NCBI GenBank assembly: GCA_030747075.1
Contig: JASLLL010000024.1
Location: 1-43,898 of the forward strand
Source of the DNA: Gemmatimonadota bacterium
GTDB lineage: Bacteria > ARS69
DNA: 43,898 bases
Direction of reading: 5' to 3'
The notes beneath the pieces were generated by a model, which worked only from the letters and a program-made list of their open reading frames with translations, was not told the origin of the DNA and made no database searches. Each line of letters opens with the position of its first letter. Position 1 is the stretch's first letter. This document shows, in pieces, positions 11,357-39,386 of this stretch. A program made the translations under genes and the position numbers.

Positions 11357-12292
11357 TTGGACACAGCCCGAATCCTCGTGGTGGAGGACGAACCGCCCAT
11401 CCGTGAGATCCTCAAGTTCCAACTGGAGGGCGCGGGGTATCAGGTGAGGTGCGCCCGGGACGGCGCGGCGGGGCTCCAGATGGCGCGGGAAGACCCCCCC
11501 GACCTGATGCTTCTCGATGTGATGATGCCGGAGATGGATGGCTTCGAAGTGTGCCGACACCTGCGGGACGGGCACGACACGCGTCAGATTCCCATCATCA
11601 TTCTGACCGCGCGCGGGGAACTCAGCGAGAAGCTCCAGGGGTTGAAGAACGGCGCGAACGACTACATGACAAAACCGTTCGCCATGCCGGAACTTCTGGT
11701 GCGCGTAAAGAATGTCCTCCAGTGGAGTGAGTCGCAGCGAGAGGCGAATCCGCTGACCGGGCTTCCGGGGAATGTGTCCATCGAGCGGGAGTTGACGGAG
11801 CGACTCGGGTCGAAGAAGCCGTTCGCGTTTCTGTATACCGACATCGACAACTTCAAAGCCTACAACGACTACTACGGGTATGCGCGTGGCGACGAAGCCA
11901 TTCGCGCCACAGCGGCCATTCTCACCGAGGCCGTATTGCAGCACGGCGAGCAGGGCGACTTCGTGGGGCACATCGGCGGAGATGACTTTGTCATCATGAC
12001 GGTGCCCGAGCGTGCGGATGAGATTGCACGGACGGTGGTCGCGAAGTTCGACGAAGCGCGGAAAGACCTCATGGACGCGGAAGACCTGGAACGCGGGTTC
12101 CTGCGAATCCGGCGGCGATCCGGCGAGATCATGAAGGTCCAGTCGCTCGGAATCACGCTCGCTGTCGTCACCAACGACAAGGGCGAAGTCGGGCACATCG
12201 GCCGCTTGGCCGACATTGCGTCAGAACTCAAGAGATACGGAAAAACCATGACCGGGAGCATTGTCGTCCGGGAACGAAGAGGGGACTCATGA
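11357..12292 (+). CDS. Response regulator with GGDEF-like output domain
   Basis: The 311-residue product has an N-terminal receiver domain with phospho-acceptor D54 (LLDVMMPEMDG) and the conserved Lys in DYMTKPF. A C-terminal GGDEF-class domain follows at about residues 140-300. That domain retains the metal- and substrate-binding stretch DIDNFKAYND and the ARGDEA turn. The signature loop reads GGDDF (207-211), so the usual glutamate is an aspartate. It may be a weak diguanylate cyclase or a GTP/c-di-GMP sensor. The TTG start follows an AGGAG site. The stop overlaps the start of the downstream kinase (ATGA), so the kinase is the likely phosphodonor. Confidence 0.88.
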   Translation: MDTARILVVEDEPPIREILKFQLEGAGYQVRCARDGAAGLQMAREDPPDLMLLDVMMPEMDGFEVCRHLRDGHDTRQIPIIILTARGELSEKLQGLKNGANDYMTKPFAMPELLVRVKNVLQWSESQREANPLTGLPGNVSIERELTERLGSKKPFAFLYTDIDNFKAYNDYYGYARGDEAIRATAAILTEAVLQHGEQGDFVGHIGGDDFVIMTVPERADEIARTVVAKFDEARKDLMDAEDLERGFLRIRRRSGEIMKVQSLGITLAVVTNDKGEVGHIGRLADIASELKRYGKTMTGSIVVRERRGDS

Positions 12293-15093
12293 CACAGGCA
12301 TCGAACGCGGACGGGTCGTGGCTGCTCTCCGGACCGGAGAGGTTGTGGAAGCACTTTCTGGAGGTTCAGGAGGGGAATCTGCAACTTGCGGAGTCTTCGG
12401 GGCGCGTGGTGGAACTGATGCGGCAGACGCTGGCCTCGGTTCCGGGGGTGGGTCCGGGCGCGATCTTCCTGGCCCGGGGCGACAAGGAGTTCACTTGCGT
12501 GGGGAGCGGGATCGAGTCGGTGAAGCGGTCGGGGTCGGACACTCTTGCAGAGCAGGAGAAACTGGCGCGCCGGGCGGTTCACGAGGCACGAACCGTGGAG
12601 TGCGCGGGGCTTTATGCGGTGCCTCTGGGGCCGGCGGGGCACGCGGTCGGCGCGGTGGTGACTGAAGGAGACCCGGAGGCGATCGAACGGTTCCTGGTGC
12701 ATGCCGGGCGTGCACTGGTCCGCGAGGTTCGCCGCGAGGGTGAGCAAAGCCTCCGGGATGGCGCCACCGGGTTCACCGACGAACTGGAGCGGTCGCTGGA
12801 GATACTGGAGGCACTCGTGCGCGGCGGAGACGCGGCGGACGCGACGCGTGGAGTCGTGAACGGCGTGGCGCGCCTTCCGTGGGTGGCGGGCGTGTCGGCG
12901 TGGGTGCTTCGCCCCGAAGACGGGGCGTATCGCGAAGTGGCGGGCGTGGGCACACGAAACGGATGCGGACGCGGCGGCCCGCCCGAACTTCCGGGAAGTG
13001 CCCGGCGCGGGGAGGGTTTTCCGAAGTGGCTCGGCGGGCTTCCCCGGTGGTCCGGATACGGATGGGTGGCGCATGGATCGCGCACCGGGGCGTGTCCGGT
13101 CGCCAGAGACATGCTCGTGGCGAGCCTCGGCAACGAGGCCCGGCCGCTTCCCGACGGGGCCATTCTCATCCTGCTATCCGGGGCGCCTGACGCGCAGGGC
13201 GCGGTGGAGTCGCTCCGCCGGTGGACCACGCTGGCATCTCTCTCGCTGGAGTCGGGAACCGCGCAGAGCCTACGCCATCGCGACCTGGAGAAACTCCGTG
13301 CCGAAAACGAACACTTGAACGAGATCTATCGCATGAAGTCACGCTTCATTGCCGCGGTCTCTCACGAGCTCCGCACGCCGCTGACTTCTATCTCCGCGTA
13401 TGCGGAAACGCTTCGCGATACGGCAGCCTGGGACGACCCGACCACGCGCACCCGCTTCCTGGATGTCATTCGCGGGGAGAGCGATCGCCTTTCGCGCATT
13501 GTCGACGACATTCTGGATCTCGCGACGATGGAATCGGGCCGCATGCGCATGGCGTGCCGTCGGATTGCGCTGGGCGATGTGGTGGCGTGTTCCGCCGATG
13601 TGATCCGGCCGATTGCGGACGAAGCCGGAGTGCGCCTCGTGCTCCCCGAGTCGATCGAGGCAATGGTCCACGCGGACGCGGACCTCTTGAAGCAGGTGGT
13701 GGTGAACCTGCTGGAGAATGCGGTGAAGTTCTCGGCGGAGGGTGGCGAGGTTCGCCTCTGCGTGGACGAGTCCGGCGCTTCGGTGAGGATTTCCGTGGAA
13801 GACAGCGGTGCCGGGATTCCAGCCGACCAACTGGACCTGGTGTTCGAACAGTTCTATCAGGTGGACGGGTCCAACACCCGGCAGGCCGGGGGCACCGGGC
13901 TGGGTCTGGCCATCTGCCGGAGAATCGTCACCTGGCACGACGGGCGGATTTGGGCCGAAAGTGAAGAGGGGGGCGGAGCGCGTTTCGTCGTGTCGCTCCC
14001 GTCGAGACGGGCGACGGCGTGCGGACCCGTCGCTGGAATCGTGGAGATGGAACCGGAAGAGACGCACCGCATCCCGGAACTCATTGTTGAGATGATCTCT
14101 GAAGTGATGGGCGTGGACATCGTGTCGCTGATGCTCACCGACCCGTCTTCGGAGGAACTGCACATTCACGCGGCAGTGGGGCTCCCCGTCGAGGTCGTGC
14201 GTGATGTACGCGTGGGAATCGGCGAACGGATCTGCGGCGTCGTGGCGCGGACCGGCGAGACACTTCTCATTCCGGATCTGGCGGTGGACGGGCGCTTCGA
14301 GTCCGCGCATCCGACACGCTACCGCACAAAGTCGGTGCTCTCCACGCCGGTGAAGATCGGCGGTCGGGTCGTCGGCGTACTCAATGTGTGCGACAAGCGC
14401 ACCGGCGACACCTTCACCGAGCACGACCGGCGACTCGTGGAACTTCTGTCCGAACGCGTGGCACTCATTCTCGGGAAGATCCGCGAGCACGCACGGTCTC
14501 CGGAGTCGCTGCGCAACATGGAGAACTCGCTTCGATGCGTGATCGATGTGCGTCGGCACTACCACCCCAGCGGCAGCGACTTCGACCGGACGCTTCTTGC
14601 CGTCTGTGGTGAACTGGATGTCCCGCCCCGGGAGGCATCGCTGATTCACTACGCGGGGATGATGCGCGACATCGGCATGGCGAAGATTCCCGACGGCATC
14701 TACCGGCGCTCCACACCACTGGGGTCCGGCGGCCGGGAGATTGTCGAGCGTCACCCCGAAGAAGGCGCGAAAGCCCTTCGCCCGATTGAGTTCCTGCAGG
14801 ATGTGTTCGACATCGTCATCTCCCACCACGAAGGAGAGGGCGGCGGGTACCCGCGCGGGTTGCCTCTCGGGCGCATTCCGAGGGGCGGGAAGATCCTCGC
14901 CGTGGTCGACGCATACCACGCGCTTCGTTCGGACCGGCCGCACCGCAAAGCGGAGGATCGGGAATGGGCGCTGAACACACTGCGCGAGGGCGTGGGAACG
15001 AAATACGATGGCGTCGTCGTGGAGGCTCTAGCGCGCGTGCTGGACGCGAACGGAAGCGAAGGAACCAACCAATCTCACGGGAGCGGGTCATGA
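12289..15093 (+). CDS. Soluble histidine kinase fused to GAF and degenerate HD-GYP domains
   Basis: The 934-residue product has no clear membrane segment. The N-terminal third (about 1-330) looks like one or two divergent GAF-type sensor domains and ends in a coiled coil. A HisKA domain follows with H359 (SHELRTPLTS). The HATPase region (about 440-585) has NLLENAVKFS, DSGAGIP and GTGLGLAICRR. A clear GAF domain (about 600-740) leads into a C-terminal HD-GYP-like domain (about 760-925). That domain keeps H846-H847-E848 and GGGYP, but the HD motif reads R793-D794, so a metal ligand is missing. Phosphodiesterase activity is therefore doubtful; a c-di-GMP-binding role is possible. ATGA overlaps at both ends couple it to two receiver proteins. 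Confidence 0.88.
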   Translation: MTQASNADGSWLLSGPERLWKHFLEVQEGNLQLAESSGRVVELMRQTLASVPGVGPGAIFLARGDKEFTCVGSGIESVKRSGSDTLAEQEKLARRAVHEARTVECAGLYAVPLGPAGHAVGAVVTEGDPEAIERFLVHAGRALVREVRREGEQSLRDGATGFTDELERSLEILEALVRGGDAADATRGVVNGVARLPWVAGVSAWVLRPEDGAYREVAGVGTRNGCGRGGPPELPGSARRGEGFPKWLGGLPRWSGYGWVAHGSRTGACPVARDMLVASLGNEARPLPDGAILILLSGAPDAQGAVESLRRWTTLASLSLESGTAQSLRHRDLEKLRAENEHLNEIYRMKSRFIAAVSHELRTPLTSISAYAETLRDTAAWDDPTTRTRFLDVIRGESDRLSRIVDDILDLATMESGRMRMACRRIALGDVVACSADVIRPIADEAGVRLVLPESIEAMVHADADLLKQVVVNLLENAVKFSAEGGEVRLCVDESGASVRISVEDSGAGIPADQLDLVFEQFYQVDGSNTRQAGGTGLGLAICRRIVTWHDGRIWAESEEGGGARFVVSLPSRRATACGPVAGIVEMEPEETHRIPELIVEMISEVMGVDIVSLMLTDPSSEELHIHAAVGLPVEVVRDVRVGIGERICGVVARTGETLLIPDLAVDGRFESAHPTRYRTKSVLSTPVKIGGRVVGVLNVCDKRTGDTFTEHDRRLVELLSERVALILGKIREHARSPESLRNMENSLRCVIDVRRHYHPSGSDFDRTLLAVCGELDVPPREASLIHYAGMMRDIGMAKIPDGIYRRSTPLGSGGREIVERHPEEGAKALRPIEFLQDVFDIVISHHEGEGGGYPRGLPLGRIPRGGKILAVVDAYHALRSDRPHRKAEDREWALNTLREGVGTKYDGVVVEALARVLDANGSEGTNQSHGSGS

Positions 15094-15464
15094 ACGAGAA
15101 ACGGAAAATACTCGTCGTCGATGACGAGAACTACATTCTGCACATTCTGGACTTCAGTCTCGGTGCGGAGGGGTACGAGGTCATCACCGCCGAAGACGGC
15201 GAAGAGGCCATCCTCCGCGCGAAGGAAGATCGGCCGGATCTTGTCGTGCTGGATGTGATGATGCCGAAGATGGACGGGTTTGAGGCGTGCCGCCAGATCA
15301 AGCGCGATCCGGATCTCTCGGCGACGCCGGTGATTCTCCTGTCCGCGCGCGGCCGCGACACCGACCAGAAGCAGGGACTCGAAGCGGGCGCGGACGACTA
15401 CATCACGAAGCCGTTCAGTCCCGGGCGCCTGGTAGACCGCATCCACGGACTGCTGAGCGCATAG
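15090..15464 (+). CDS. Single-domain response regulator (CheY-like)
   Basis: This is a 124-residue stand-alone receiver domain. VVDDE supplies the acidic pocket, D55 in LDVMMPKMDG is the phosphorylation site, and DDYITKPF contains the conserved Lys. No output domain is present, so it probably acts by protein-protein contact or as a phosphate sink. Its ATG overlaps the kinase stop (ATGA), making it the second receiver partner of the same kinase. Confidence 0.92.
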   Translation: MNEKRKILVVDDENYILHILDFSLGAEGYEVITAEDGEEAILRAKEDRPDLVVLDVMMPKMDGFEACRQIKRDPDLSATPVILLSARGRDTDQKQGLEAGADDYITKPFSPGRLVDRIHGLLSA

Positions 15465-15495: not shown

Positions 15496-16146
15496 TCAGT
15501 GGCACAGGGTGCAGGTTGGTTCCGCGTCCGTGTGGCAGGTGGCGCAGTAGGCAATGTCGGCCCGGCCTTCGTCTGAATGCAGCCCGCCGTCCGGCAGGCC
15601 CGGGTTCACCCAGTCCAGCGACCGGTGGTCCGGCGGTCGAACACCACTTCCCGCATGGCAGTCCAGGCAGAAGCTCCGTTCGTCATGACAGGCACCGCAG
15701 TCCGTGAACCCGCCCCGCGCTTCATCCGCGTGCGTGAAGAGGAAGTTCCTCGGGTGGGAGAGCGTCTCGACATTCTCCCCGAGGTGGCATTCCGTACACG
15801 ACTCCTCATCGACATGACACCCCGCGCAGTCCGCCGCATCCGGCCCCACGGCGTCCAGGCGGTGGGTGAAGAGGAAATCCCCGCGATGGCTGGATGGCGC
15901 ACCCCCCGAGAAGATTGGCAGATCAGGAAGGTGTTCTCCTTCGTGGCAGTCCGCGCACCCGTCCCGCGAAACAGGGAGAAGCCTCCCGGCGTCCGCATCC
16001 ATGTGGCACGAAGAGCAATCGATTTCGTTGTCCACGGCGTGGAGATCGTGGGAGAAGGGGGTTCCCGTTTCCGCAACGGCCGCGAAAACAAACGCGAAGG
16101 AACCGAGCAGAGCTCCGACGATGCGGAGATTGCGTCGTCCGGTCAT
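15496..16146 (-). CDS. Small periplasmic octahaem c-type cytochrome
   Basis: The 216-residue product begins with a signal peptide (MTGRRNLRIVGALLGSFAF...) and carries eight CxxCH haem-attachment motifs: CSSCH, CADCH, CAGCH, CTECH, CGACH, CLDCH, CATCH and CTLCH. One haem per about 25 residues makes it a densely packed electron wire. The chosen ATG (complement 16144-16146) overlaps the stop of the upstream beta-barrel gene (ATGA); a longer frame to 16266 lacks a signal sequence. Size and haem number resemble the periplasmic Oma proteins of Geobacter porin-cytochrome complexes, where an Oma, a porin and an outer lipoprotein cytochrome work together. No homology beyond the motifs is claimed. Confidence 0.88.
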   Translation of the reverse strand: MTGRRNLRIVGALLGSFAFVFAAVAETGTPFSHDLHAVDNEIDCSSCHMDADAGRLLPVSRDGCADCHEGEHLPDLPIFSGGAPSSHRGDFLFTHRLDAVGPDAADCAGCHVDEESCTECHLGENVETLSHPRNFLFTHADEARGGFTDCGACHDERSFCLDCHAGSGVRPPDHRSLDWVNPGLPDGGLHSDEGRADIAYCATCHTDAEPTCTLCH

Positions 16147-17414
16147 CGTCCGGCCCTCCCGTTCTTCCCGTCGTCCGGGATGCCGAAGTTGCAGGTGACG
16201 CCACAGAGCAACCGCAGCGCATAGGGGTGCCGGTCGTTGTTGAGGTACTCCAGGCGCGTGTTCCACTTCAGCCGATCCGAAGCGTGGTAATCCGCGGCCA
16301 GGGCGAAGGCGGCGGCCCCGTCTTCCACGGGCACCACGGTGCCGCGCTCATACGATTGAAGATTGGCCGTGGCACGGACATCGAGCCCTGGCCGGAGGTT
16401 CCTTCGGACTGACCCGAAGAGACCGTTTCGGTCGCCCGCGATTCCCCGGGTGGCGCGGTAACCCACCGACCAGTTCTTCCAGGACACCGTGCCGCGTGCG
16501 ATGTCGGACCGCTCATCGTCCGTGCTGCGGATGGAGGAAACCCAGTTTGCGGAGAGGGAAAGATCGCGATCCACGGACCACCTCCACGCGGCGCTCATGC
16601 GGCGGAAGGCGGCGGGTTCGATATCGGCGAACAGCGAGGCGAAGTAGCCCCCGACGATCTCGGGTCGAGCGCGGTCCCGGTACGCCAGCGTCACGCGATG
16701 GTGCGGTGCCGGACGCACCGTTCCGCCGAAGTAGGTCTCCACGGCTTCTTCGGACTCCATGTCGTAACGATGCCCGGCATACGCGGAGGCCACACGCCCG
16801 AAGCGGTAGTCCGCGCGCGTGTCCAGATTGCGTTCCGTGGTCTCCGCGTCCCGGCGGACCGTCTCAACCCCGCCCGACAGGCGAAGCGCCCCCGCGACCC
16901 GCGCAGCGCTCCAGAATCCCCAGCGCGACCCCTCGTCCCGGGAGAGAAGGAGCAACTCCGTACGCTCCTCATGGCCGAGCGTTCCCCCGTAGGCGAGCAA
17001 GTTCACGCGGGATCCCGCACGGACGCGCACCGACACGCCGTCGATTACGCCCGATCCTCCCCCCGCGTGGACATAGTGGCGACCAAGCGCGGCCCGGACG
17101 CCGCTGTCCGCGGACCGGTACCGCAGCGCCGCATGATGAATGCGGGTCTTCGTGAGAGAGGGGTCTCCCTCGGAGAGGTCGTTGCGGGACACCAGCGACC
17201 CGCGAAAAGAAAGACCCCGGCCCAGCCCCGGCACGGAAATGCCGAGTCTCTGATAGGCCAGGGTCCGTGTTCCGGAATCCGATCCGGATCCGTCTTCCAG
17301 AATGTACAGAGTCGTGGCGGCGGTCCCCGAGAGCGACGCGGCATGGGCCGCGCCACCTCCCAGGGCGATCGCCAGGGCGACGGTGAGAAGTCTACCGGGT
17401 CCTGACGATCGCAA
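16143..17414 (-). CDS. Predicted outer-membrane beta-barrel (porin-like) protein
   Basis: The 423-residue product has a cleavable signal peptide (LLTVALAIALGGGAAHA) followed by alternating hydrophobic and polar residues typical of transmembrane beta strands. Arg/Tyr/Asp-rich turns recur every 12-20 residues. The family was not recognised by name. It is sandwiched between two octahaem cytochromes on the same strand and overlaps the downstream one by four bases. That supports a role as the barrel sheath of an electron conduit such as MtrB or OmbB. It is shorter than those (about 650-750 residues), implying fewer strands. The TTG at 17414 is the only usable start after an in-frame stop, and its ribosome site is weak. 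Confidence 0.7.
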   Translation of the reverse strand: MRSSGPGRLLTVALAIALGGGAAHAASLSGTAATTLYILEDGSGSDSGTRTLAYQRLGISVPGLGRGLSFRGSLVSRNDLSEGDPSLTKTRIHHAALRYRSADSGVRAALGRHYVHAGGGSGVIDGVSVRVRAGSRVNLLAYGGTLGHEERTELLLLSRDEGSRWGFWSAARVAGALRLSGGVETVRRDAETTERNLDTRADYRFGRVASAYAGHRYDMESEEAVETYFGGTVRPAPHHRVTLAYRDRARPEIVGGYFASLFADIEPAAFRRMSAAWRWSVDRDLSLSANWVSSIRSTDDERSDIARGTVSWKNWSVGYRATRGIAGDRNGLFGSVRRNLRPGLDVRATANLQSYERGTVVPVEDGAAAFALAADYHASDRLKWNTRLEYLNNDRHPYALRLLCGVTCNFGIPDDGKNGRAGR

Positions 17415-17448
17415 CCGGACACATCCGTGAAACGGGTTTCAGTTTGTC

Positions 17449-18669
17449 CTAGTCGTGGATTCCCACAGCCTGGGCCGAGAGTTCCGCCAGAGTCTTCATG
17501 GACCCGAGGCCTCCCGTACCGGAAGAATCCTGGTGGCAACCATGGCACGCGAAGTCAAGAGTGACCGAGGCTACGCCGCCCTCGTCCACGACCACGAAAG
17601 TGGTGCCGCCGTCATCATAGAACATGGCGTCCTTGCCGACCGCATCCGTGTTGATCTGGAAGATGTGCGACATCACATCTCCGTTGTAGTCGTTCTCCTT
17701 GACCGCGCTCTTGGCGGCTTCCGGCATATGGCAGTCCGTACACCCGACCGTCCCCGGATAGAGGAGATCGTGTCCCGCGATCGTCACCACTTCCGAGTGG
17801 CAATCCTCACAGGTCGTGGTCACGCCCATGCCGAGCGCCTCGTCGTCGAAGACCACGGAGGAGTGCGGGTCGTGACAGTCGTTGCAGCCCGCATATCCCT
17901 TGTGCGGCGAATGCAGCCATTCGTCGTACTGCTCGTGGTGCTTGATGAAGCCACTGCTGACCTGGATCTTCTGCGTGGAATGACGCGTGTGACAGCGTCC
18001 GCACTGGTCGGACGAGGCATCCACGGTCATCGGGAAGAGTTCCGGGTCGGAGACATGCTGCGAACCGGTGCCGTGGCACTCCTCGCAGTGGACGCCGGGA
18101 GCCACGAAGGTTCCGGTCATTCCAGCCATGCCTTCCTGGTTGTTGGTGGCGTCGCCGTCATCGGAGTCCACCCAACCGGTGGTGTGGCACTTGCCGCAGT
18201 TGTACGGCTTCTCCTCACCGACATGGTAGTCCGAGTAGGCCCCGCTCTCGAAGTTGTACTGATTGCTGCCGACATCGGTCTGGATGAATCCGTCGTTCTT
18301 GACCCAGCGCATCTTCCAGCCGTATCCACCGATCGTGTAGCTGTAGTCGGCCCATGTGCCCGTGGGCGGGTCGACCGGATCGTTGGGATAGCGAGAGAAG
18401 GTCGGGAACTTGTCCGTCGGAGCCACACCGTCAATCTTCGTCAGCTTGTACGGATGGCCGGACTCAACCCAGCGATCGTACTCGTCGCTGCCGGTGGCGC
18501 GACCTGCCGAAGATGTGTCGGAGTGACACGTTGCGCAGGCTGCCGAGCCCGCGTAGTCCATGGCCGGAACCGGGTCCGGCGTGATGCAATCGTCATCATT
18601 GTCTGCACATCCGGCCACGAACGCCGCAACGAGCAGAACCAGAAGACAGGGCAACCAACGATTCAGCAT
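17449..18669 (-). CDS. Octahaem c-type cytochrome lipoprotein
   Basis: The 406-residue product has a lipoprotein signal (MLNRWLPCLLVLLVAAFVAGC, Cys at about 21) and a short Asp-rich linker. Eight CxxCH motifs follow: CATCH, CGKCH, CEECH, CGRCH, CNDCH, CEDCH, CTDCH and CHGCH. The spaced distal histidines (HSTQK, HHEQYDEW, SPHKGY) suggest bis-His ligation as in cytochrome c554/OTR-like proteins. The ATG is preceded on the minus strand by a GGGAGGTGG ribosome site. It is the first gene of a minus-strand set with a beta-barrel and a periplasmic octahaem cytochrome. It may sit at the outer face of the outer membrane and hand electrons to external acceptors, but an inner-facing periplasmic position is not excluded. 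Confidence 0.88.
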   Translation of the reverse strand: MLNRWLPCLLVLLVAAFVAGCADNDDDCITPDPVPAMDYAGSAACATCHSDTSSAGRATGSDEYDRWVESGHPYKLTKIDGVAPTDKFPTFSRYPNDPVDPPTGTWADYSYTIGGYGWKMRWVKNDGFIQTDVGSNQYNFESGAYSDYHVGEEKPYNCGKCHTTGWVDSDDGDATNNQEGMAGMTGTFVAPGVHCEECHGTGSQHVSDPELFPMTVDASSDQCGRCHTRHSTQKIQVSSGFIKHHEQYDEWLHSPHKGYAGCNDCHDPHSSVVFDDEALGMGVTTTCEDCHSEVVTIAGHDLLYPGTVGCTDCHMPEAAKSAVKENDYNGDVMSHIFQINTDAVGKDAMFYDDGGTTFVVVDEGGVASVTLDFACHGCHQDSSGTGGLGSMKTLAELSAQAVGIHD

Positions 18670-18967: not shown

Positions 18968-21280
18968 GTGAAGACGCGCATTCAGGTCGAAATCGTCCTT
19001 GTGGCCGCCTTTCTGGCACTTTGCGGTTGTGGCCGGAAGGAAGCGCCACCGGGGGTTCTCCTGGTGACGATCGACACCTGCCGGGCAGACCGGATTGGCT
19101 GCTACGGCTCCACGCTCTGCGAAACCCCGACCCTTGACGGTCTGGCCGGGCGGGGCGTGGCCTATCTGGACGCCACGGCGACCGCACCCGTCACGCTGCC
19201 CTCCCACTGCTCCATTCTCACGGGGCTCTATCCGGACAGGCATACCGTGCGCGACAACGGGGCCGGCCGCCTCCCCGGGGAGGCCCGGACGATTCCCGAG
19301 ATTCTTCGCGACGAGGGCTGGTCCACCGCCGCCTTTCTTGCCGCCGTTCCGCTGGAGAGCCGCTACGGCACCGGGCAGGGCTTCGACCTCTACGAGGACG
19401 ACCTCGCGGACGACCTTCCGGAGGGGGACATCCTGAACCGGCTCTATTCCGACCAGCGGACCGCGGATCGGGTGGTGGACCTCGCGCTGCCGTGGATGAC
19501 ACAGGCGGCGGCCGGGACAAAGCCGTACTTTGCGTGGGTCCACTTCTTCGACCCGCATCAGGCGTACGAGCCGCCGCCACACATCGCGTCCCGCTATGAG
19601 GACGCCCCCTACGAAGGGGAGATCGCGTTCGTGGACGAGCAGCTCGGGCGGCTGCTCGGCGGTCTCGGGGAGGCGGTGAGGTCGAGGCTTCTCGTGGCGG
19701 TGACCGCGGATCACGGGGAGTCGCTCGGTGAGCACGAGGAGCCCTCGCACGGCTTCTTCGTCTACGATTCCGCGCTCCGCGTGCCGTGGATCATGGCGGG
19801 CCCGGGCGTGCCGGAGGGGGTCCGCGTGGAAGATCCCGTGTCGCTGGTGCAGTTTGCCCCGACGCTTCTGGAACTGGTCGGCGTGCCGGTCCCTTCCGGG
19901 CTGGATGGAGGGAGCGCGGCCGGGCTTCTTCGCGGAGACGACGCCGCCCCCGACGCGATCTTCGCGGAGGCGCTCTTTCCCCGGCTCAACTTCGACTGGG
20001 AGGGCAGCCGGAGCATTCGGAAGGGCGGCTGGAAGTACATCGATGCGCCGCGGCCGGAACTCTACGACCTGACGGCGGACCCCCACGAGACACGAAATGT
20101 GCTGTCCGGGCACCCGGGAGAGGCCCGCGCGCTTCGTGCGGAACTGTGGGAGCATTCGGCGCGCGGGGGGGCGCTCGGTGCGGTCGAGGCCATTGTGGAC
20201 GAGGCGGCGCGGGAGCAACTGGAGGGGCTGGGGTATGTCGGAGGGGTGGGCGCGTCGTCGGCCCCGGCGGCAGAGGCGGCGTTGTGGACCTTCCGCGGCC
20301 CGGACCCGAAGGACGGGGTCACGGTCTTCGCGCTGCTTCAGAAGCTGCCGCAGCTCATTCTTTCGGGGAAGACGGCCGAGGCGAAGGCGGTCGCGGCGGA
20401 GATGGATGCGGCCATCCCCGGGGACCTGCCGGTGCTTCGCAAGGTGGCGCAGCTCTGGCGGCGGGCGGAGGCATGGGAGGAGACGGAGGCCGCGTGGCGC
20501 AAGGTGGTGGCGCTCGACGCGCGGGATGCCGCGGCCTGGCTCGGAATCGGGGAGGCGGCTCTTCGCACGGGAGACCGCCCGGGCGCGACGGAGGCATATG
20601 AACGGGCGGCCGAAGCCAACCCCACGGACGCACGCGCATGGAGGATGGCCGGGAGCCTCCTGGCGGAAACGGGAGATCATGCAGGGGCGGTTGCCGCGCT
20701 GGAGCGTGCGGTGGCGGCGGATTCCTCGGCGGAGGCTCTGGCGGACCTCGGTCGTGCGCTGAAGGACGCGGGGCGTGCCCGAGAGGGCCTTGCCGCTTAC
20801 GACCGGGCGATCTCGGCGGACCCGGGGTTCGCCGGGGCCGTGACCGGGCGGGCATCGATCCTGACGGCGATGGGGCGGCCCGCGGAAGCGGTGGAGACGC
20901 TTCGCAGGGGACTTGTCGCGTCCGGCGAAGACGCGGGGATCGCGAACAACCTGGCATGGATTCTCGCGGACCACCGGGCGGTCTTTGACCCGGAGGAAGC
21001 CTACCGGCTGGCGCGGCTGGCGGCGTCGAAGGAGCCGGACGACGCGGCCATTCTCGACACGCTGGGGTGGGCGGCCATCCGCTCCGGGCGGCCCACGGAG
21101 GCGGTGGAACCGCTGCGCCGCGCCTGGGAGGCCACGCGGGACGCGGAAGTGCGGGCGCATCTGGGGATTGCGCTGGCGGAGTCAGGGCGGGAGGCGGACG
21201 GCCGCGCACATGTCCGGGCGGCGCTTGCCGAACGGCCCGATCTGGGGAGCGTGCCGGAGGTGGCCGAGTGGGCACGCTGA
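18968..21280 (+). CDS. Sulfatase-family (alkaline phosphatase superfamily) lipoprotein with TPR repeats
   Basis: The 770-residue product starts with a lipoprotein-like signal ending LCGC (Cys21). The sulfatase/phosphoesterase domain (about 30-410) has a metal-binding start LVTIDTCRADRIGCYG. Its nucleophile loop is VTLPSHCSILTG, and a later metal site is VTADHGESLGEH. The canonical C/S-x-P-x-R motif is replaced: Thr stands at the nucleophile position and His replaces Arg. Formylglycine modification is thus impossible, and a Thr-type phosphoesterase or phosphoglycerol-transferase-like activity is more likely. From about 430 to the end run TPR-like helical pairs (AAWLGIGEAALRTGD, AWRMAGSLLAETGD). 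GTG start after GGAGGG. It overlaps priA by 13 bases. Confidence 0.85.
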   Translation: MKTRIQVEIVLVAAFLALCGCGRKEAPPGVLLVTIDTCRADRIGCYGSTLCETPTLDGLAGRGVAYLDATATAPVTLPSHCSILTGLYPDRHTVRDNGAGRLPGEARTIPEILRDEGWSTAAFLAAVPLESRYGTGQGFDLYEDDLADDLPEGDILNRLYSDQRTADRVVDLALPWMTQAAAGTKPYFAWVHFFDPHQAYEPPPHIASRYEDAPYEGEIAFVDEQLGRLLGGLGEAVRSRLLVAVTADHGESLGEHEEPSHGFFVYDSALRVPWIMAGPGVPEGVRVEDPVSLVQFAPTLLELVGVPVPSGLDGGSAAGLLRGDDAAPDAIFAEALFPRLNFDWEGSRSIRKGGWKYIDAPRPELYDLTADPHETRNVLSGHPGEARALRAELWEHSARGGALGAVEAIVDEAAREQLEGLGYVGGVGASSAPAAEAALWTFRGPDPKDGVTVFALLQKLPQLILSGKTAEAKAVAAEMDAAIPGDLPVLRKVAQLWRRAEAWEETEAAWRKVVALDARDAAAWLGIGEAALRTGDRPGATEAYERAAEANPTDARAWRMAGSLLAETGDHAGAVAALERAVAADSSAEALADLGRALKDAGRAREGLAAYDRAISADPGFAGAVTGRASILTAMGRPAEAVETLRRGLVASGEDAGIANNLAWILADHRAVFDPEEAYRLARLAASKEPDDAAILDTLGWAAIRSGRPTEAVEPLRRAWEATRDAEVRAHLGIALAESGREADGRAHVRAALAERPDLGSVPEVAEWAR

Positions 21281-31072: not shown

Positions 31073-34000
31073 ATGAGCTGGATCAAGGACATTGTCTCTC
31101 CGGAGACACGCAAGTGGGAATCGTTCTACCGAAACCGCTTTCAGCATGACCGGGTGGTTCGCAGCACACATGGCGTGAACTGTACGGGCGGGTGCTCGTG
31201 GCAGGTCCATGTGAAGGACGGGATCGTCGTCTGGGAAACCCAGCAACTGGACTATCCGCTGCTCGAAGGGGAGCTTCCGCCGTACGAGCCACGCGGATGC
31301 CAGCGCGGCATTTCCTTCTCCTGGTATCTCTACAGCCCGCTCCGCATCAAGTATCCGCTGATTCGCGGGTCGCTGGTGGACGCTTTCCGCGCGGAGAAGG
31401 CGAAGACCGGAGATCCGTACGCCGCATGGGAGAATCTGCAGGCGGACGAATCGGCGCGCGGCCGATACACGCGGGCTCGCGGCAAGGGCGGCTTCCGGCG
31501 CACTTCGTGGGAAGAGGTCGAGGAGATCATGGCGGTCGCCAACCTCCACACCGCGAAGAAGTACGGCCCGGACCGGGTGATAGGCTTCTCCCCGATTCCA
31601 GCCATGTCCATGTTGAGCTACGCGGCGGGCGGGCGCTTCCTGCAGTTGTTCGGCGGCGTCAACCTGAGCTTCTACGACTGGTACTGCGATCTCCCGACAG
31701 CTTTCCCCGAGATCTGGGGAGAGCAGACGGATGTCTGCGAGAGCGCGGACTGGTACAACTCCAAGATGATTGCGGACATGGGCGCGTGTCTCAACATGAC
31801 GCGTACTCCGGACTGCCACTTCTTCGCGGAGTCGCGGCACAACGGCACGAAGGCGGTTGTGTTCGCGCCGGACTTCAGCCAGGTGTGCAAGTACGCGGAC
31901 CAGTGGGTTCCGCTGCACGCCGGTAGCGACGGCGCGTTCTGGATGGCGGTCTCGCATGTCATCCTGAAGGAGTTCCACCACGACCAGGCGACACCCTACT
32001 TCCTCGACTATGTGAAGAAGTACACAGACAGCCCGTATCTGGTGAAGCTGGAGAAGGACGGGGACCACTACAAGCCCGGCCGCCTTCTCCGCGCGAAGGA
32101 AGTGGCGAACTTCCGGGACATCTCCAACGGAGACTGGAAGTTCCTCAACATCGATGCGAAGACGGGCGCGTTCGTCGTTCCGAAGGGCGCCAGCGGGCAT
32201 CGGTGGGACGCGGACCAGGGACACTGGAACATGAAGGCGGAGAACTCCGCCGACAACGCACCCTACGATCCGCTCCTGTCGTTCATTGACGGCTCCGACG
32301 AAGTGCTTCAGGCGGAGTTCGTGGAGTTCGGGAAGGATGTCACCGCGCTTCGCGGCGTCCCCGTGAAGTATGTGGAGACGGAGTCGGGCCGTGTGGCCGT
32401 GACGACGGTATATGACCTGACGATGGCGCAGTACGGCGTCGGTCGAGGACTGGACGGCGACTACCCGGCGGACTATACGGACCAGACCGCGGCCTATACG
32501 CCCGCCTGGCAGGAGGTCTTCACCGGCGTCGACTCCAAGACGGTGGTTCAGTTTGCGCGGGAGTGGGCTTCGACCGCGTCGCAGACTCAGGGCAAGTGCA
32601 TGATCATCATCGGCGCGGGCATCAACCACTGGTACCACGCGAACCTGATGTACCGCGCGGGCGCCATGGCACTGATGCTGTCCGGTTGCGTCGGCCGCAA
32701 CGGCGGCGGGTTGAACCACTATGTCGGGCAGGAGAAGCTGGCGCCGATGGATTCGTGGGGCTCCATTGCCTTCGCCAAGGACTGGCACGCTCCGTCACGC
32801 CTCCAGCAGGCCCCGCTGTGGCACTACATCAACACCTGCCAGTACCGGTACGACGGCCAGTTCTCCAAGTACAACACCGTGCCCGACAACGACTGGACGG
32901 GGCGGCACACGGCAGACCAGATCTTCCGCGCGGTACGAATGGGATGGATGCCGTTCTATCCGCAGTTCCAGCGGAACACGCTGGACCTTTGCCGCGAGGC
33001 CGCGGACAGCGGATGCGGCACAGACGAGGAAATCAAGGGCTTCGTCATCGACCAGCTCAAGTCGAAGAAACTGGCGTACTCCGTCAGCGACCCGGAAGCA
33101 CCGGAGAACTTCCCGCGTGTGTGGTACATCTGGCGCGGCAACGCCATCATGGGAAGCATGAAGGGTCATGAGTACTGTTTGAAGCACTACCTCGGCACGC
33201 ACTCCAATGCCATTGCCAAGGATTCGGAAGACCACACACAGGAAGTCAAGTGGCACGAGGTGGCGCCGACCGGGAAGATGGACCTGATCGTGGACCTGAA
33301 CTTCCGGATGGACTCGTCTGCGCTCTATTCGGACATCGTGCTGCCGGCGGCGTCCTGGTACGAGAAGGCGGACCTGAACAGCACGGACCTTCACTCGTTC
33401 ATTCACCCGCTGTCGCAGGCCATCCCGCCGGTGTGGGAGTCGAAGAGCGACTGGGAGATCTTCCGCAACCTCGCGAAGAAGACCAGCGAACTGGCCGCGA
33501 AGTATCTGCCGGGTGCGCACAAAGATGTGGTGGCACTTCCGCTGGCCCACGATTCCGCAGACGAAATCAGCCAGCCGGAAGTTCGGGACTGGTACCTCGG
33601 CGAATGCGAGGCCGTTCCCGGCAAGACGATGCACAAACTGGCGGTCGTGGAGCGGGATTACACAAAACTGTACGAGCGCTTCATCTCCCTCGGGGAGAAG
33701 ATCCGGGACAATGGTCTGGGAGCGCACGGGAACAGCTACGACGCCACCCCCGAGTACGACGAGATGGTGTCCTCGAACCACTTCCCGGTGGAGCAGGTGG
33801 ACGGGGTCGCGCTGCCGTCGCTGAAGGAAGACACATCCGCAGCGAACGCCGTGCTTCATCTATCTTCGCTCACGAACGGAGAGTTGACCGTTCGGGCGTA
33901 TGAGAACGCGGAGAAGCGAACCGGGCTGACGCTGGCCGACCTGGCGCACGGGAGTCAGGATGTCCGAATCAACTATGCGGACCTGCAGGCGCAACCGCGT

Positions 34001-34687
34001 CGATACAACACTTCGCCATTGTGGTCCGGCCTCATGAACGACGGCCGTGCGTACGCAGCCTACACCTACAATGTGGAAAGGCTCGTGCCGTGGCGGACGC
34101 TCACCGGTCGCCAGCACTTCTACCTGGACCACGAGATGTACCTGGCATACGGCGAGAATCTTCCGACCTACAAGCCTTCTCCCAAGCCGGAACTCTACGG
34201 CGATCTCAAGGAGACGCTCGAAGGCGGCGAGGCCAAGGTTCTCAACTGCCTTACCCCGCACGGCAAGTGGCACATCCACTCCACCTACATGGAGAACCTC
34301 CGGATGCTCACGCTGTCACGCGGGTGCGAGCCATGCTGGATCAGCGAGGAAGACGCGGCAGACCTCGACATTCAGGACAACGACTGGGTGGAGGTCTACA
34401 ACGATCACGGAGTCTTCTGCACACGCGCGGCGGTTACGGCGCGTGTGCCTCGCGGAGTGTGCATCGTCTACCATGTTCCGGAGCGGACCGTGGGAATCCC
34501 GAAGTCGCAGGTGCGCGGGAACAAACGCGCCGGAGGCCATAACAGCTTCACCCGGATCCACCTGAAGCCGAACTTCCTGAGCGGCGGATACGGACAGTTC
34601 ACCTACCACTTCAACTACTGGGGCCCCATCGCCCCGAACCGCGACACGCATGTCACGGTCAAGAAAATGACAAAGGTCGTGTTTTAG
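31073..34687 (+). CDS. narG: Respiratory nitrate reductase alpha subunit
   Basis: NarG holds the molybdo-bis(MGD) site that reduces nitrate to nitrite, plus the FS0 [4Fe-4S] cluster. The 1204-residue product matches family length. FS0 ligands are in [11 protein letters not shown] plus a distal Cys in PRGCQRG, with His as first ligand. The molybdenum-ligating Asp lies in [10 protein letters not shown] (D206), followed by [16 protein letters not shown]. No twin-arginine signal is present, so it should face the cytoplasm with NarH. The Asp ligand and the linked NarI, NarJ and NarK genes favour nitrate reduction; nitrite oxidoreductases share many motifs and cannot be dismissed by these alone. 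Confidence 0.95.
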
Positions 34688-34723: not shown

Positions 34724-36268
34724 ATGGATATCAGATCCCAGGTGGCGATGGTCTTCCACCTCGACAAGTGCATCGGATGCCATACCTGTTCGGTTGCGTG
34801 CAAGAACATCTGGACCGACCGAAAAGGCGCCGAATACATGTGGTGGAACAATGTAGAGACCAAGCCCGGCACGGGCTATCCGGGCAAGTGGGAAGACCAG
34901 GACATCTACGAAGGCGGCTGGCGGAAGAACGGGTCCAGCATCGGACTTCGCGGCGCGGGAAAGAAGAAGGGCCTTGCGAACATCTTCCACAATCCGCACC
35001 TGCCGGTCATTGACGACTATTACGAACCATTCACCTACAAGTACCTGAACCTCATCGAGTCGCCCGAATCGGACGACCAGCCCACGGCGCGTCCTGTTTC
35101 CCTGATTACCGGCGAACCGATGGACATTCGCATGGGACCCAACTGGGACGACGACATGGGGGGCACGCCTGATCACGGGCGGAAGGATCCGAATCTGGAG
35201 AACCTGACTCCCGCGGAGCAGGAAGCCATGTTCCAGTTGGAGCGCATGGCGTTCTTCTACCTCCCGAGGATCTGCAACCACTGTCTCAACCCGGCGTGCG
35301 TGGCGTCGTGCCCGTCCGGTGCTATCTACAAGCGCGGCGAAGACGGAGTGGTTCTGATCAACCAGGATGTCTGCCGGGGTTGGCGGATGTGCGTCACGGC
35401 GTGCCCGTACAAGAAGTCGTACTACAACTGGCAGACCGGCAAGTCCGAGAAGTGCATTCTCTGCTTCCCCCGGATTGAGTCGGGACACGCGCCCGCCTGC
35501 ATGCACTCGTGTGTCGGGCGGATCCGCTATCTGGGCGTTCTGCTCTACGACGCGGATCGTATCGAGGAAGTGGCCTCCTGCGACGAGAAGGACCTGGTGG
35601 ATCGCCAGATGGACATGATCATGGATCCGACAGATCCGGCGGTCATCGCGTCGGCTCGTGCGAACGGGATTGCGGACTCCACGCTGGACGCGGCGGCGAA
35701 GTCGCCGGTTTACCGCTTTGTGAAAGAGTGGAACCTCGCGCTGCCACTCCACCCGGAGTTCCGGACGCTGCCCATGTTGTTCTATGTGCCGCCCCTTCTT
35801 CCCGTGATGGCATCGGTGCGCGACCGCTCGGAAGCGGGCGACGAACTCAACCCCATGTCGAAGGTCTGGGAAGACCAGTGGCTATACGACACTTCCACGG
35901 AGGAGTTGTGGGGGTCCATTGAGCAGGCACGCATCCCCATGAAGTACATGGCCAACCTCTTCAGCGCGGGCGACGAAGGCAAGGTCCGCGAACGCATCCA
36001 GAAGATGATGGCGATGCGGATTCACCGGCGTCAAGTGACGGTGGGTGATGTGAGCGAAGACAAGGCCAATGCGGCACTTTGCGCGGCCGACCTCACGACC
36101 GACAGCGCGGATGCCATCTACAAACTCACCTCCCTGGCGAAGTTCAACGACCGCTTTGTGATTCCGGCGGCACATCGCGAGCAGGCCATCGAGATGCTCG
36201 AGTTCACCGGCGACAAGCGCGGCAGCACGGGGTTTGGTTCGCACGACACCCCGGCTCGTGGGATCTAG
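34724..36268 (+). CDS. narH: Respiratory nitrate reductase beta subunit (iron-sulfur)
   Basis: NarH carries electrons from NarI haem b to NarG through four Fe-S clusters. The 514-residue product shows all four Cys groups: C16/C19/C22/C26 (CIGCHTCSVAC), CNHCLNPACVASC, CRGWRMCVTAC and CILCFPRIESGHAPACMHSC. The Trp in CRGWRMC replaces a Cys, giving a [3Fe-4S] cluster as in E. coli NarH. The four-cluster pattern is intact. narJ begins one base after its stop. Confidence 0.96.
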   Translation: MDIRSQVAMVFHLDKCIGCHTCSVACKNIWTDRKGAEYMWWNNVETKPGTGYPGKWEDQDIYEGGWRKNGSSIGLRGAGKKKGLANIFHNPHLPVIDDYYEPFTYKYLNLIESPESDDQPTARPVSLITGEPMDIRMGPNWDDDMGGTPDHGRKDPNLENLTPAEQEAMFQLERMAFFYLPRICNHCLNPACVASCPSGAIYKRGEDGVVLINQDVCRGWRMCVTACPYKKSYYNWQTGKSEKCILCFPRIESGHAPACMHSCVGRIRYLGVLLYDADRIEEVASCDEKDLVDRQMDMIMDPTDPAVIASARANGIADSTLDAAAKSPVYRFVKEWNLALPLHPEFRTLPMLFYVPPLLPVMASVRDRSEAGDELNPMSKVWEDQWLYDTSTEELWGSIEQARIPMKYMANLFSAGDEGKVRERIQKMMAMRIHRRQVTVGDVSEDKANAALCAADLTTDSADAIYKLTSLAKFNDRFVIPAAHREQAIEMLEFTGDKRGSTGFGSHDTPARGI

Positions 36269-37748: not shown

Positions 37749-39386
37749 ATGCCAGCGAACATCGACAAATGGGATGTCGAAAACGAAGAGTTCTGGGCGA
37801 GCACAGGTAAGAGTGTTGCGACCAGAAACCTGTGGATCTCGATCCCGAGTCTGCTGTGCGGTTTTGCCGTCTGGCTCATGTGGGGGATCATTACGGTCCA
37901 GATGAAAAACCTCGGGTTCCCGTTTGCACAGACGGAACTCTTCACACTCACGGCCATCGCGGGGCTCACGGGTGCGACGCTTCGCATTCCCAGCACCTTC
38001 TTTATCCGCCTGGCGGGCGGACGAAACACCATCTTCTTCACCACCGCGCTCCTGATGATTCCGGCGCTCGGTTCCGCCCACTTCCTGAAGAACCCGGACA
38101 CCCCGCTCTGGGTATTCCAGATTCTGGCGTTTCTGTCCGGAATCGGCGGTGGGAACTTTGCGTCTTCCATGTCCAACATCAGTTTCTTCTACCCGAAGCG
38201 CGTGCAGGGCTACGCGCTGGGCATGAACGCCGGGCTCGGGAACTTCGGTGTGACGACCATGCAGATTCTGATTCCGCTCTGCATGACGGCCGCCATTGTC
38301 GGGCCGCTGAGTGGTCCCTCGATGGAACTGGCCACGACCAGCGGCACCATCTTCAAGCGCATTCCGGCAGGGTCGCAGACATGGCTCTCCAGCGCGGGTT
38401 GGGTGTGGATGTACTGGCTGATTCCACTGGCATTCCTTGGCTGGACACGGATGAACAACATCACCACCGATTCCGTCACGCCGGGCTTGAAAAACCCACT
38501 GGTCTCGTTTGGCCGGATCGCCTGGCTGCTTCTGATCGGGTTTGTGACGGCAGGTGTGGGTCTGTTCTTCATTCTTCAGTACGCGGCCCTCACATGGGTC
38601 AAGTGGATCGTGCTGCCCGCCGTGATTGGGGCGACGGTCGTCCTGATGAAGGCACTCTCGCCCGGCGAAATCAAAGGCAACCTGGACAGGCAGTACAAGA
38701 TCTTCGGCAACAAGCATACCTGGGTGATGACCATCATTTACACGATGACCTTTGGTTCGTTCATCGGGTTCTCCGCGGCCGTGGGGCTGGCCATCAAGTT
38801 CATCTTCGGCTTTCAGCACGGCATGGTGGATGGCGTCATGGTGCACGGCGGCATGGTGGACGGAGTGTTGTCCGCAGCCGGGAACAACGCGAAGGCTCCG
38901 CCCACCTTTATGTTTGTCTGGGTGGGTGCGTTTGTGGGTGCGCTGATTCGCCCAATCGGAGGAATGATTGCGGACAAGGTCGGTGGCGCCATTGTGACAC
39001 AGGTGGTCGCCGTGGTGATGACGCTCTCCGCGATCGGCGTGGGCTACTACTCATCCCTTGCGTATCAATCGATGACGCCGGAGACCTACTTCATTCCGTT
39101 CTTTGTGCTGATTGTCATTCTGTTTGCCGCGACGGGCGTCGGAAACGGCTCCACATTCCGCACGATCTCCATGGTGTTCAACCAGGAACAAGCCGGACCG
39201 GTTCTCGGATGGACTTCCGCAGTCGCCGCGTACGGCGCTTTCCTGATTCCAAAACTGATCGGCGAGCAGATGAAGGCAGCCACCCCGGAAGTCGCCATGT
39301 ACGGACTGGCCGTCTTCTACGCGTTCTGCGCAGTCCTGAACTGGTGGTACTACCTCGGTCCGAAGGCGGAGCACAAGAACCCGTAG
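37749..39386 (+). CDS. narK: MFS nitrate/nitrite transporter (NarK type)
   Basis: The 545-residue protein has about 12 membrane segments and the NarK-type opening W-DVENEEFW-ASTGKSVATRNLW. Both nitrate signature motifs are present: GGGNFASSMSNISFFYP and GVGNGSTFRTISMVF. An insertion with a repeated GMVDGV/HGGMVDGV stretch lies in the middle (about 358-375). By similarity to NarK/NarK2 it should exchange nitrate for nitrite, but transport mode cannot be set from sequence. A GGAG site precedes the ATG; the gene is followed 36 bases later by a second transporter gene. Confidence 0.9.
   Translation: MPANIDKWDVENEEFWASTGKSVATRNLWISIPSLLCGFAVWLMWGIITVQMKNLGFPFAQTELFTLTAIAGLTGATLRIPSTFFIRLAGGRNTIFFTTALLMIPALGSAHFLKNPDTPLWVFQILAFLSGIGGGNFASSMSNISFFYPKRVQGYALGMNAGLGNFGVTTMQILIPLCMTAAIVGPLSGPSMELATTSGTIFKRIPAGSQTWLSSAGWVWMYWLIPLAFLGWTRMNNITTDSVTPGLKNPLVSFGRIAWLLLIGFVTAGVGLFFILQYAALTWVKWIVLPAVIGATVVLMKALSPGEIKGNLDRQYKIFGNKHTWVMTIIYTMTFGSFIGFSAAVGLAIKFIFGFQHGMVDGVMVHGGMVDGVLSAAGNNAKAPPTFMFVWVGAFVGALIRPIGGMIADKVGGAIVTQVVAVVMTLSAIGVGYYSSLAYQSMTPETYFIPFFVLIVILFAATGVGNGSTFRTISMVFNQEQAGPVLGWTSAVAAYGAFLIPKLIGEQMKAATPEVAMYGLAVFYAFCAVLNWWYYLGPKAEHKNP

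Follow-up and report, generated by a model that had tools for sequence, protein, structure and literature searches.

Several described systems provide a framework for the locus reported here. In porin–cytochrome (Pcc) clusters, such as Geobacter OmbB-OmaB-OmcB, the Ext clusters and Ignavibacterium IALB_1837-1839 (PMC4245776, PMC6148476), the gene for a small barrel adjoins that for a periplasmic multihaem cytochrome, and most clusters also include a surface lipoprotein cytochrome. A survey of these systems gives 18–22 predicted strands for the barrels and 5–14 haems for the periplasmic cytochromes, with eight haems in Geobacter OmaB (PMC4245776); Geobacter OmcB has 12. MtrCAB, MtoAB and PioAB have a cytochrome wire inside the barrel and a surface cytochrome outside it. 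Their barrels, which belong to MtrB_PioB, have about 26–28 strands, and the wire of MtrCAB is an MtrA/DmsE decahaem protein. Two further proteins are relevant to the outer cytochrome. OcwA, a surface nonahaem protein from Thermincola (PDB entry 6i5b), is a terminal reductase for iron oxide and electrodes as well as for nitrite and hydroxylamine; its HH281/282 sit above the open haem 2 (PMC6703420). MccA is an octahaem sulfite reductase (PDB entry 4rkm).

We have analysed a 43,898-nucleotide stretch of DNA from a Gemmatimonadota bacterium (contig JASLLL010000024.1), referred to here in its entirety as the window, in which three genes encode an octahaem lipoprotein, an outer-membrane β-barrel and a small periplasmic octahaem cytochrome. 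In our view, these proteins probably constitute a trans-outer-membrane electron conduit of the Pcc kind. That they form a complex and that part of it is exposed at the surface we infer from the genes, the haem motifs, the strand model, family membership, synteny and homology to OcwA/MccA. The trio fits Pcc in the size of its barrel, in the number of its haems, in the pairing of its genes and in having a lipoprotein cytochrome, whose outer location is deduced from its lipobox and its relatives; the likeness is one of features. The order of the genes (outer cytochrome, barrel, wire) differs from that of the Pcc clusters.

Locus organization

The three genes, which an earlier note on this DNA had described as co-directional, lie on the minus strand at 15496–18669 with reading frames exact to the base (Table 1), and the four-base overlap that it reported between the last two is present as ATGA. 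This overlap likely couples translation of the barrel and the periplasmic cytochrome. The lipoprotein and barrel genes are separated by 34 nt, and the TTG assigned to the barrel is the earliest start codon downstream of the preceding in-frame stop. In 5000 shuffles of each cytochrome the CXXCH motif arose by chance fewer than 0.1 times on average and at most twice, compared with the eight copies present.

The trio is a self-contained unit, because its upstream neighbour is divergent and its downstream neighbour, a response regulator gene, is convergent. No promoter for the trio was found in a scan for the sigma70 consensus, and a promoter/terminator scan was uninformative. The upstream neighbour is a 770-aa open reading frame with a lipobox-like start, in which an arylsulfatase-like domain is fused to TPR repeats. 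On the other side of the trio lies a sensor histidine kinase of 934 aa, the C-terminal part of which resembles GAF plus HD-GYP by eye, flanked on both sides by response regulators.

Table 1. Positions of the trio, its sequence elements and other genes in the window
Feature	Positions	Strand	Remarks
Octahaem lipoprotein gene	18669-17449	minus	ATG start; 406 aa; 8 CXXCH; lipobox VAGC, Cys21 (sequence)
Outer-membrane β-barrel gene	17414-16143	minus	TTG start; 423 aa; CXXCH absent; 22 predicted strands (AlphaFold2, Foldseek, family alignment)
Periplasmic octahaem cytochrome gene	16146-15496	minus	ATG start; 216 aa; 8 CXXCH; c7-like; 27 aa per haem
ATGA overlap, barrel stop/cytochrome start	16143-16146	minus	Sequence
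Lipobox VAGC (residues 18-21), lipid-bearing Cys21, then ADNDDD	18607-18618	minus	Sequence
His244-His245 codons of lipoprotein	17935-17940	minus	Aligned with OcwA HH281/282; position computed from alignment
Barrel signal peptide, residues 1-25, ends AHA	17340-17414	minus	By-eye prediction from sequence
Periplasmic cytochrome signal peptide, residues 1-25, ends AVA	16072-16146	minus	By-eye prediction from sequence
Sulfatase-TPR gene	18968-21280	plus	Points away from trio
Response regulator	about 15075-15464	plus	Converges on trio
Sensor histidine kinase	12289-15093	plus	934 aa
Response regulator	11357-12292
NarG	31073-34687	plus	Within window
NarH	34724-36268	plus	Within window
NarK-type nitrate/nitrite transporter	37749-39386	plus	Within window

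Outer-membrane barrel

The assignment of the middle gene product as a barrel is borne out by an AlphaFold2 model built on a 17-sequence family alignment, which has 22 strands (pLDDT 84.6, pTM 0.75). The top 50 Foldseek matches to this model are outer-membrane barrels throughout, including FimD, AlgE and the Occ porins; MtrB is absent from them. The superposition r.m.s.d. values are high, and the matches with FimD, AlgE and the Occ porins support the barrel fold class only. Profile searches matched the window barrel to no Pfam or NCBIfam family. MtrB_PioB (PF11854) likewise gave no match to it and a single weak one (0.0038) among 17 relatives. In a geometric estimate with a strand tilt of 40°, the backbone radius is near 20 Å for 22 strands compared with about 24 Å for 26; in principle, a 22-strand barrel should be wide enough for a rod of c-haems.

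With the barrel and cytochrome genes adjacent, 22 strands in the model and eight haems, the trio shares these three features with the surveyed Pcc systems. The porin–cytochrome parts list of the earlier note is thus backed by the strand count and the haem count, as well as by synteny elsewhere and by the conserved pairing of barrel and cytochrome. Its description of the conduit as a miniature is not, because both the barrel size and the haem number fall within the known Pcc range of 18–22 strands and 5–14 haems, and OmaB, like the window wire, has eight (PMC4245776). We also considered membership of the MtrAB group, which shares the overall design of the trio. This was ruled out by profile, with no match to MtrB_PioB or to TIGR03508; the trio barrel is smaller than the MtrB_PioB barrels, and its wire is c7-like with eight haems rather than an MtrA/DmsE decahaem protein.

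Periplasmic octahaem cytochrome

The c7-like family to which the small cytochrome belongs is found in 19 of the 386 sampled genomes (E < 1e-10). Searches with profiles made from relatives show that, in nearly every readable locus, a neighbour of the small cytochrome gene encodes a barrel of approximately 400 aa from the same family as the window barrel. The nearest solved relatives are the dodecahaem protein 3ov0, alternative complex III subunit A and c7 cytochromes, with MtrA far behind; TIGR03508, which describes the decahaem MtrA/DmsE wire, does not match the window protein. Most members of the family are longer, with 9–14 haems in 228–394 residues. Compared with these, the window cytochrome is missing three haems at its N terminus and a further one in its interior, and the positions it retains are exactly the eight common to 15 to 17 of the 17 members. 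An octahaem wire cut down to the haems that are nearly always kept in its family could serve structural studies as a candidate for a minimal trans-membrane wire.

Eight or nine additional histidines are conserved in the small cytochrome, which makes an all bis-His wire plausible. Its structure model was too poor for use, as expected without haem. In a phylogenetic tree, the eight-haem cytochromes of the window and of genomes G396 and G399 form one group (85/93), although the branches are long and the tree is soft. The placement of the corresponding wire at locus L104, also on a long branch, is unsure.

Outer octahaem lipoprotein

Close relatives of the lipoprotein (about 50–58%) are mostly found in Krumholzibacteriota, with further relatives in Myxococcota, Bacteroidota, Ferrimonas and one archaeon. 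The family profile (A3) matches OcwA (1.3e-28), MccA (3.8e-21) and MtrA (4.7e-13), and also 1sp3 and NrfA. By these profile matches, the outer cytochrome is a member of the OcwA/MccA/NrfA superfamily and is not OmcB-like or MtrC-like. The earlier note had measured its eight haems against the 12 of OmcB; the protein is not a short OmcB, and its structural relatives are OcwA and MccA. In a limited search of the literature, we came across no description of an OcwA/MccA-class protein in a porin–cytochrome cluster, nor anything pertinent on OcwA homologues encoded next to porins.

The eight haems of the lipoprotein align one to one, and in order, with those of MccA. Haems 1–4 correspond to OcwA haems 1–4, and we read haems 5–8 as OcwA haems 6–9 on the basis of the CHDPH and CHMP signatures, although the aligner itself placed haem 5 on OcwA haem 5. 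On our reading the lipoprotein has no counterpart of OcwA haem 5 or of the second OcwA His-His, such that it has eight haems and one His-His, against nine haems and two His-His pockets in OcwA. The C-terminal helix bundle of both OcwA and MccA is absent, with 27 residues following the last haem motif. The MccA-type copper cysteine is also missing, since every cysteine after Cys28 belongs to a haem motif, and a His-His takes its place near haem 2. The last haem motif is an ordinary CXXCH, and there is no CXXCK haem of the type found in NrfA. Unlike OcwA, the protein is a lipoprotein whose gene, in a Gram-negative genome, adjoins those for a barrel and a wire.

His244 and His245, which coincide with OcwA HH281/282 in the alignment, are both present in 20 of 21 relatives. 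We had considered that the eight conserved extra histidines might be eight distal ligands, which would make every haem bis-His and leave no catalysis; this was dropped when two of them were found to align with the OcwA His-His pocket. Setting His244-His245 aside leaves six conserved histidines for seven haems. A single His-Met haem, like OcwA haem 9, would give just this number, and by homology one open haem is then the simplest reading. We consider the chances about even that haem 2, beneath His244-His245, is open. As all its haems pair with those of MccA and the His-His motif of OcwA haem 2 is kept, the lipoprotein may function at the surface as a reductase and not simply as the tip of a wire.

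The lipoprotein might go further and be a true enzyme for a soluble compound (nitrite, hydroxylamine or a sulfur or selenium oxyanion), fed by the conduit in a DmsEFAB-like manner, and not a mineral reductase. The MccA-like haem order and the widely retained OcwA-type His-His at haem 2 are in keeping with such an enzyme, as are the reduction of nitrite and hydroxylamine by OcwA (PMC6703420) and the presence in the same window of narGH, by which nitrite is produced. The losses of the MccA copper cysteine and C-terminal helix bundle, the lack of an NrfA-type CXXCK haem and the slow nitrite turnover of OcwA argue against it, and we regard it as unlikely. For the conduit as we read it, solid acceptors or shuttles are favoured and N-oxides are possible.

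The surface role known for OcwA is also predicted for the lipoprotein. In most of its close relatives, a serine and two acidic residues directly follow the lipobox. In three relatives (L103:5912-7486, L106:6630-8096 and L108:5699-7246) a T9SS type A sorting tail (TIGR04183) takes the place of the lipobox, and the archaeal relative (L017:5650-6915, on a contig labelled Euryarchaeota) has a C-terminal hydrophobic membrane anchor. Together, the lipobox and these tails and anchor suggest export to the cell surface. A lipoprotein-export signal, CSDDD, has been described in Bacteroidota (PMC5080379). As the corresponding start in the window protein is CADNDDD, and as acidic starts could be a general property of these genomes, the acidic residues next to the lipobox are only a hint of such a signal.

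Inner-membrane partner and direction of electron flow

Cytochromes elsewhere in the same genome were located by pattern and family searches. Contig C18 encodes a NapC/NirT-like pentahaem protein with 61% identity to a G399 protein whose gene is directly downstream of that for the eight-haem cytochrome; in G240 the gene for a relative immediately precedes the barrel cluster. Among the 386 genomes, the pentahaem and small-cytochrome families occur together in 10 compared with 2.1 expected (Fisher 5e-6). The NapC-like protein is the best candidate for quinol-side input.

In the proposed conduit, electrons from quinol would enter most likely through this pentahaem protein, encoded on a contig other than that of the trio, and would run along the eight-haem cytochrome, sheathed by the 22-strand barrel, to the lipoprotein on the outer face. 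The eight haems of the wire would represent the core common to a family reaching 14 haems. With a putatively open haem 2, the lipoprotein could then serve as a terminal reductase for extracellular acceptors such as metal oxides, shuttles or perhaps N-oxides. Given a conduit, we lean moderately towards this outward direction.

The same proteins could operate inward, in which case the surface octahaem protein would draw electrons from extracellular Fe(II), from minerals or from partner cells, and a periplasmic pool would hand them on to nitrate or oxygen reduction. NarG, NarH and a NarK-type transporter are encoded in the window, and a CtaD oxidase together with a Qrc/ACIII-like molybdopterin-type protein on contig C30; it has been proposed that microaerobic Fe(II) oxidisers have alternative complex III in common (PMC5566968). 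From narGH, NarK and CtaD, the organism can probably use nitrate and oxygen and is a probable nitrate respirer. The outer protein is nevertheless related to the reductases OcwA, MccA and NrfA, and its linked partner in the inner membrane belongs with the NapC/NirT quinol dehydrogenases. We consider inward flow the less probable direction, but a real alternative given the genes for nitrate and oxygen respiration.

Near the ACIII/Qrc-like gene on contig C30 is a 956-aa protein with 19 haems and a weak cytochrome b561 match (L124:4796-7666). We note that similar proteins with 17–19 haems are encoded near the barrel and cytochrome pair at L058, L060, L061 and L064.

Occurrence in other genomes

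At L104, in a genome from a different small phylum, all three genes are found again with their order unchanged; they encode a 442-aa octahaem lipoprotein, a 424-aa barrel and a 204-aa cytochrome with seven CXXCH motifs. In G396 the lipoprotein gene points away from those for the barrel, whose frame is interrupted, and an eight-haem cytochrome, the locus being spread over two contigs with an exact 141-base end overlap. The same arrangement is likely in G399, where it is not proved because the locus is split over contigs without overlap. G240 has a pair encoding a barrel and a 12-haem cytochrome and, about 4 kb away, a broken relative of the lipoprotein. An in-frame stop, which may reflect decay or an assembly error, cuts this relative into two open reading frames (L113:7057-8226).

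The lipoprotein and small-cytochrome families are found together in five of the 386 genomes compared with 0.7 expected (Fisher 2.5e-4, uncorrected for the relatedness of the genomes). Both are absent from the four other sampled genomes of the window's phylum, and in most of the Krumholzibacteriota relatives the lipoprotein gene is unaccompanied. This last observation would suit chance adjacency of an ordinary porin and two periplasmic carriers or detoxifying cytochromes, which we consider very improbable given the pairing of barrel and cytochrome genes across many families, the presence of the trio, in co-directional or divergent form, in four genomes and the surface-export signals on lipoprotein relatives.

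A trans-outer-membrane conduit at this locus would add a small uncultured phylum to the groups with extracellular electron transfer and, by way of the common families, Krumholzibacteriota and others as well. More tentatively, and at somewhat short of an even chance, we suggest that its terminal protein is an OcwA/MccA-class reductase with one open haem, acting on solid and soluble acceptors and occurring in several phyla together with a stripped-down wire of seven or eight haems. If true, such a reductase-tipped conduit joins the octahaem enzymes of the nitrogen and sulfur cycles to outer-membrane conduits. If the open haem is kept, surface reductases of the OcwA type are not peculiar to Gram-positive bacteria, and conduits accept unrelated terminal proteins as exchangeable tips.

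A different arrangement is seen at L002:5737-11453, on a contig labelled Binatota. One open reading frame encodes a tandem double octahaem protein with 16 haems and is followed by genes for a seven-haem cytochrome and for a probable barrel of 705 aa that has no cysteine and no Pfam match. If the latter is indeed a barrel, this locus may represent a second, different type of conduit adjoining the same outer-cytochrome family.
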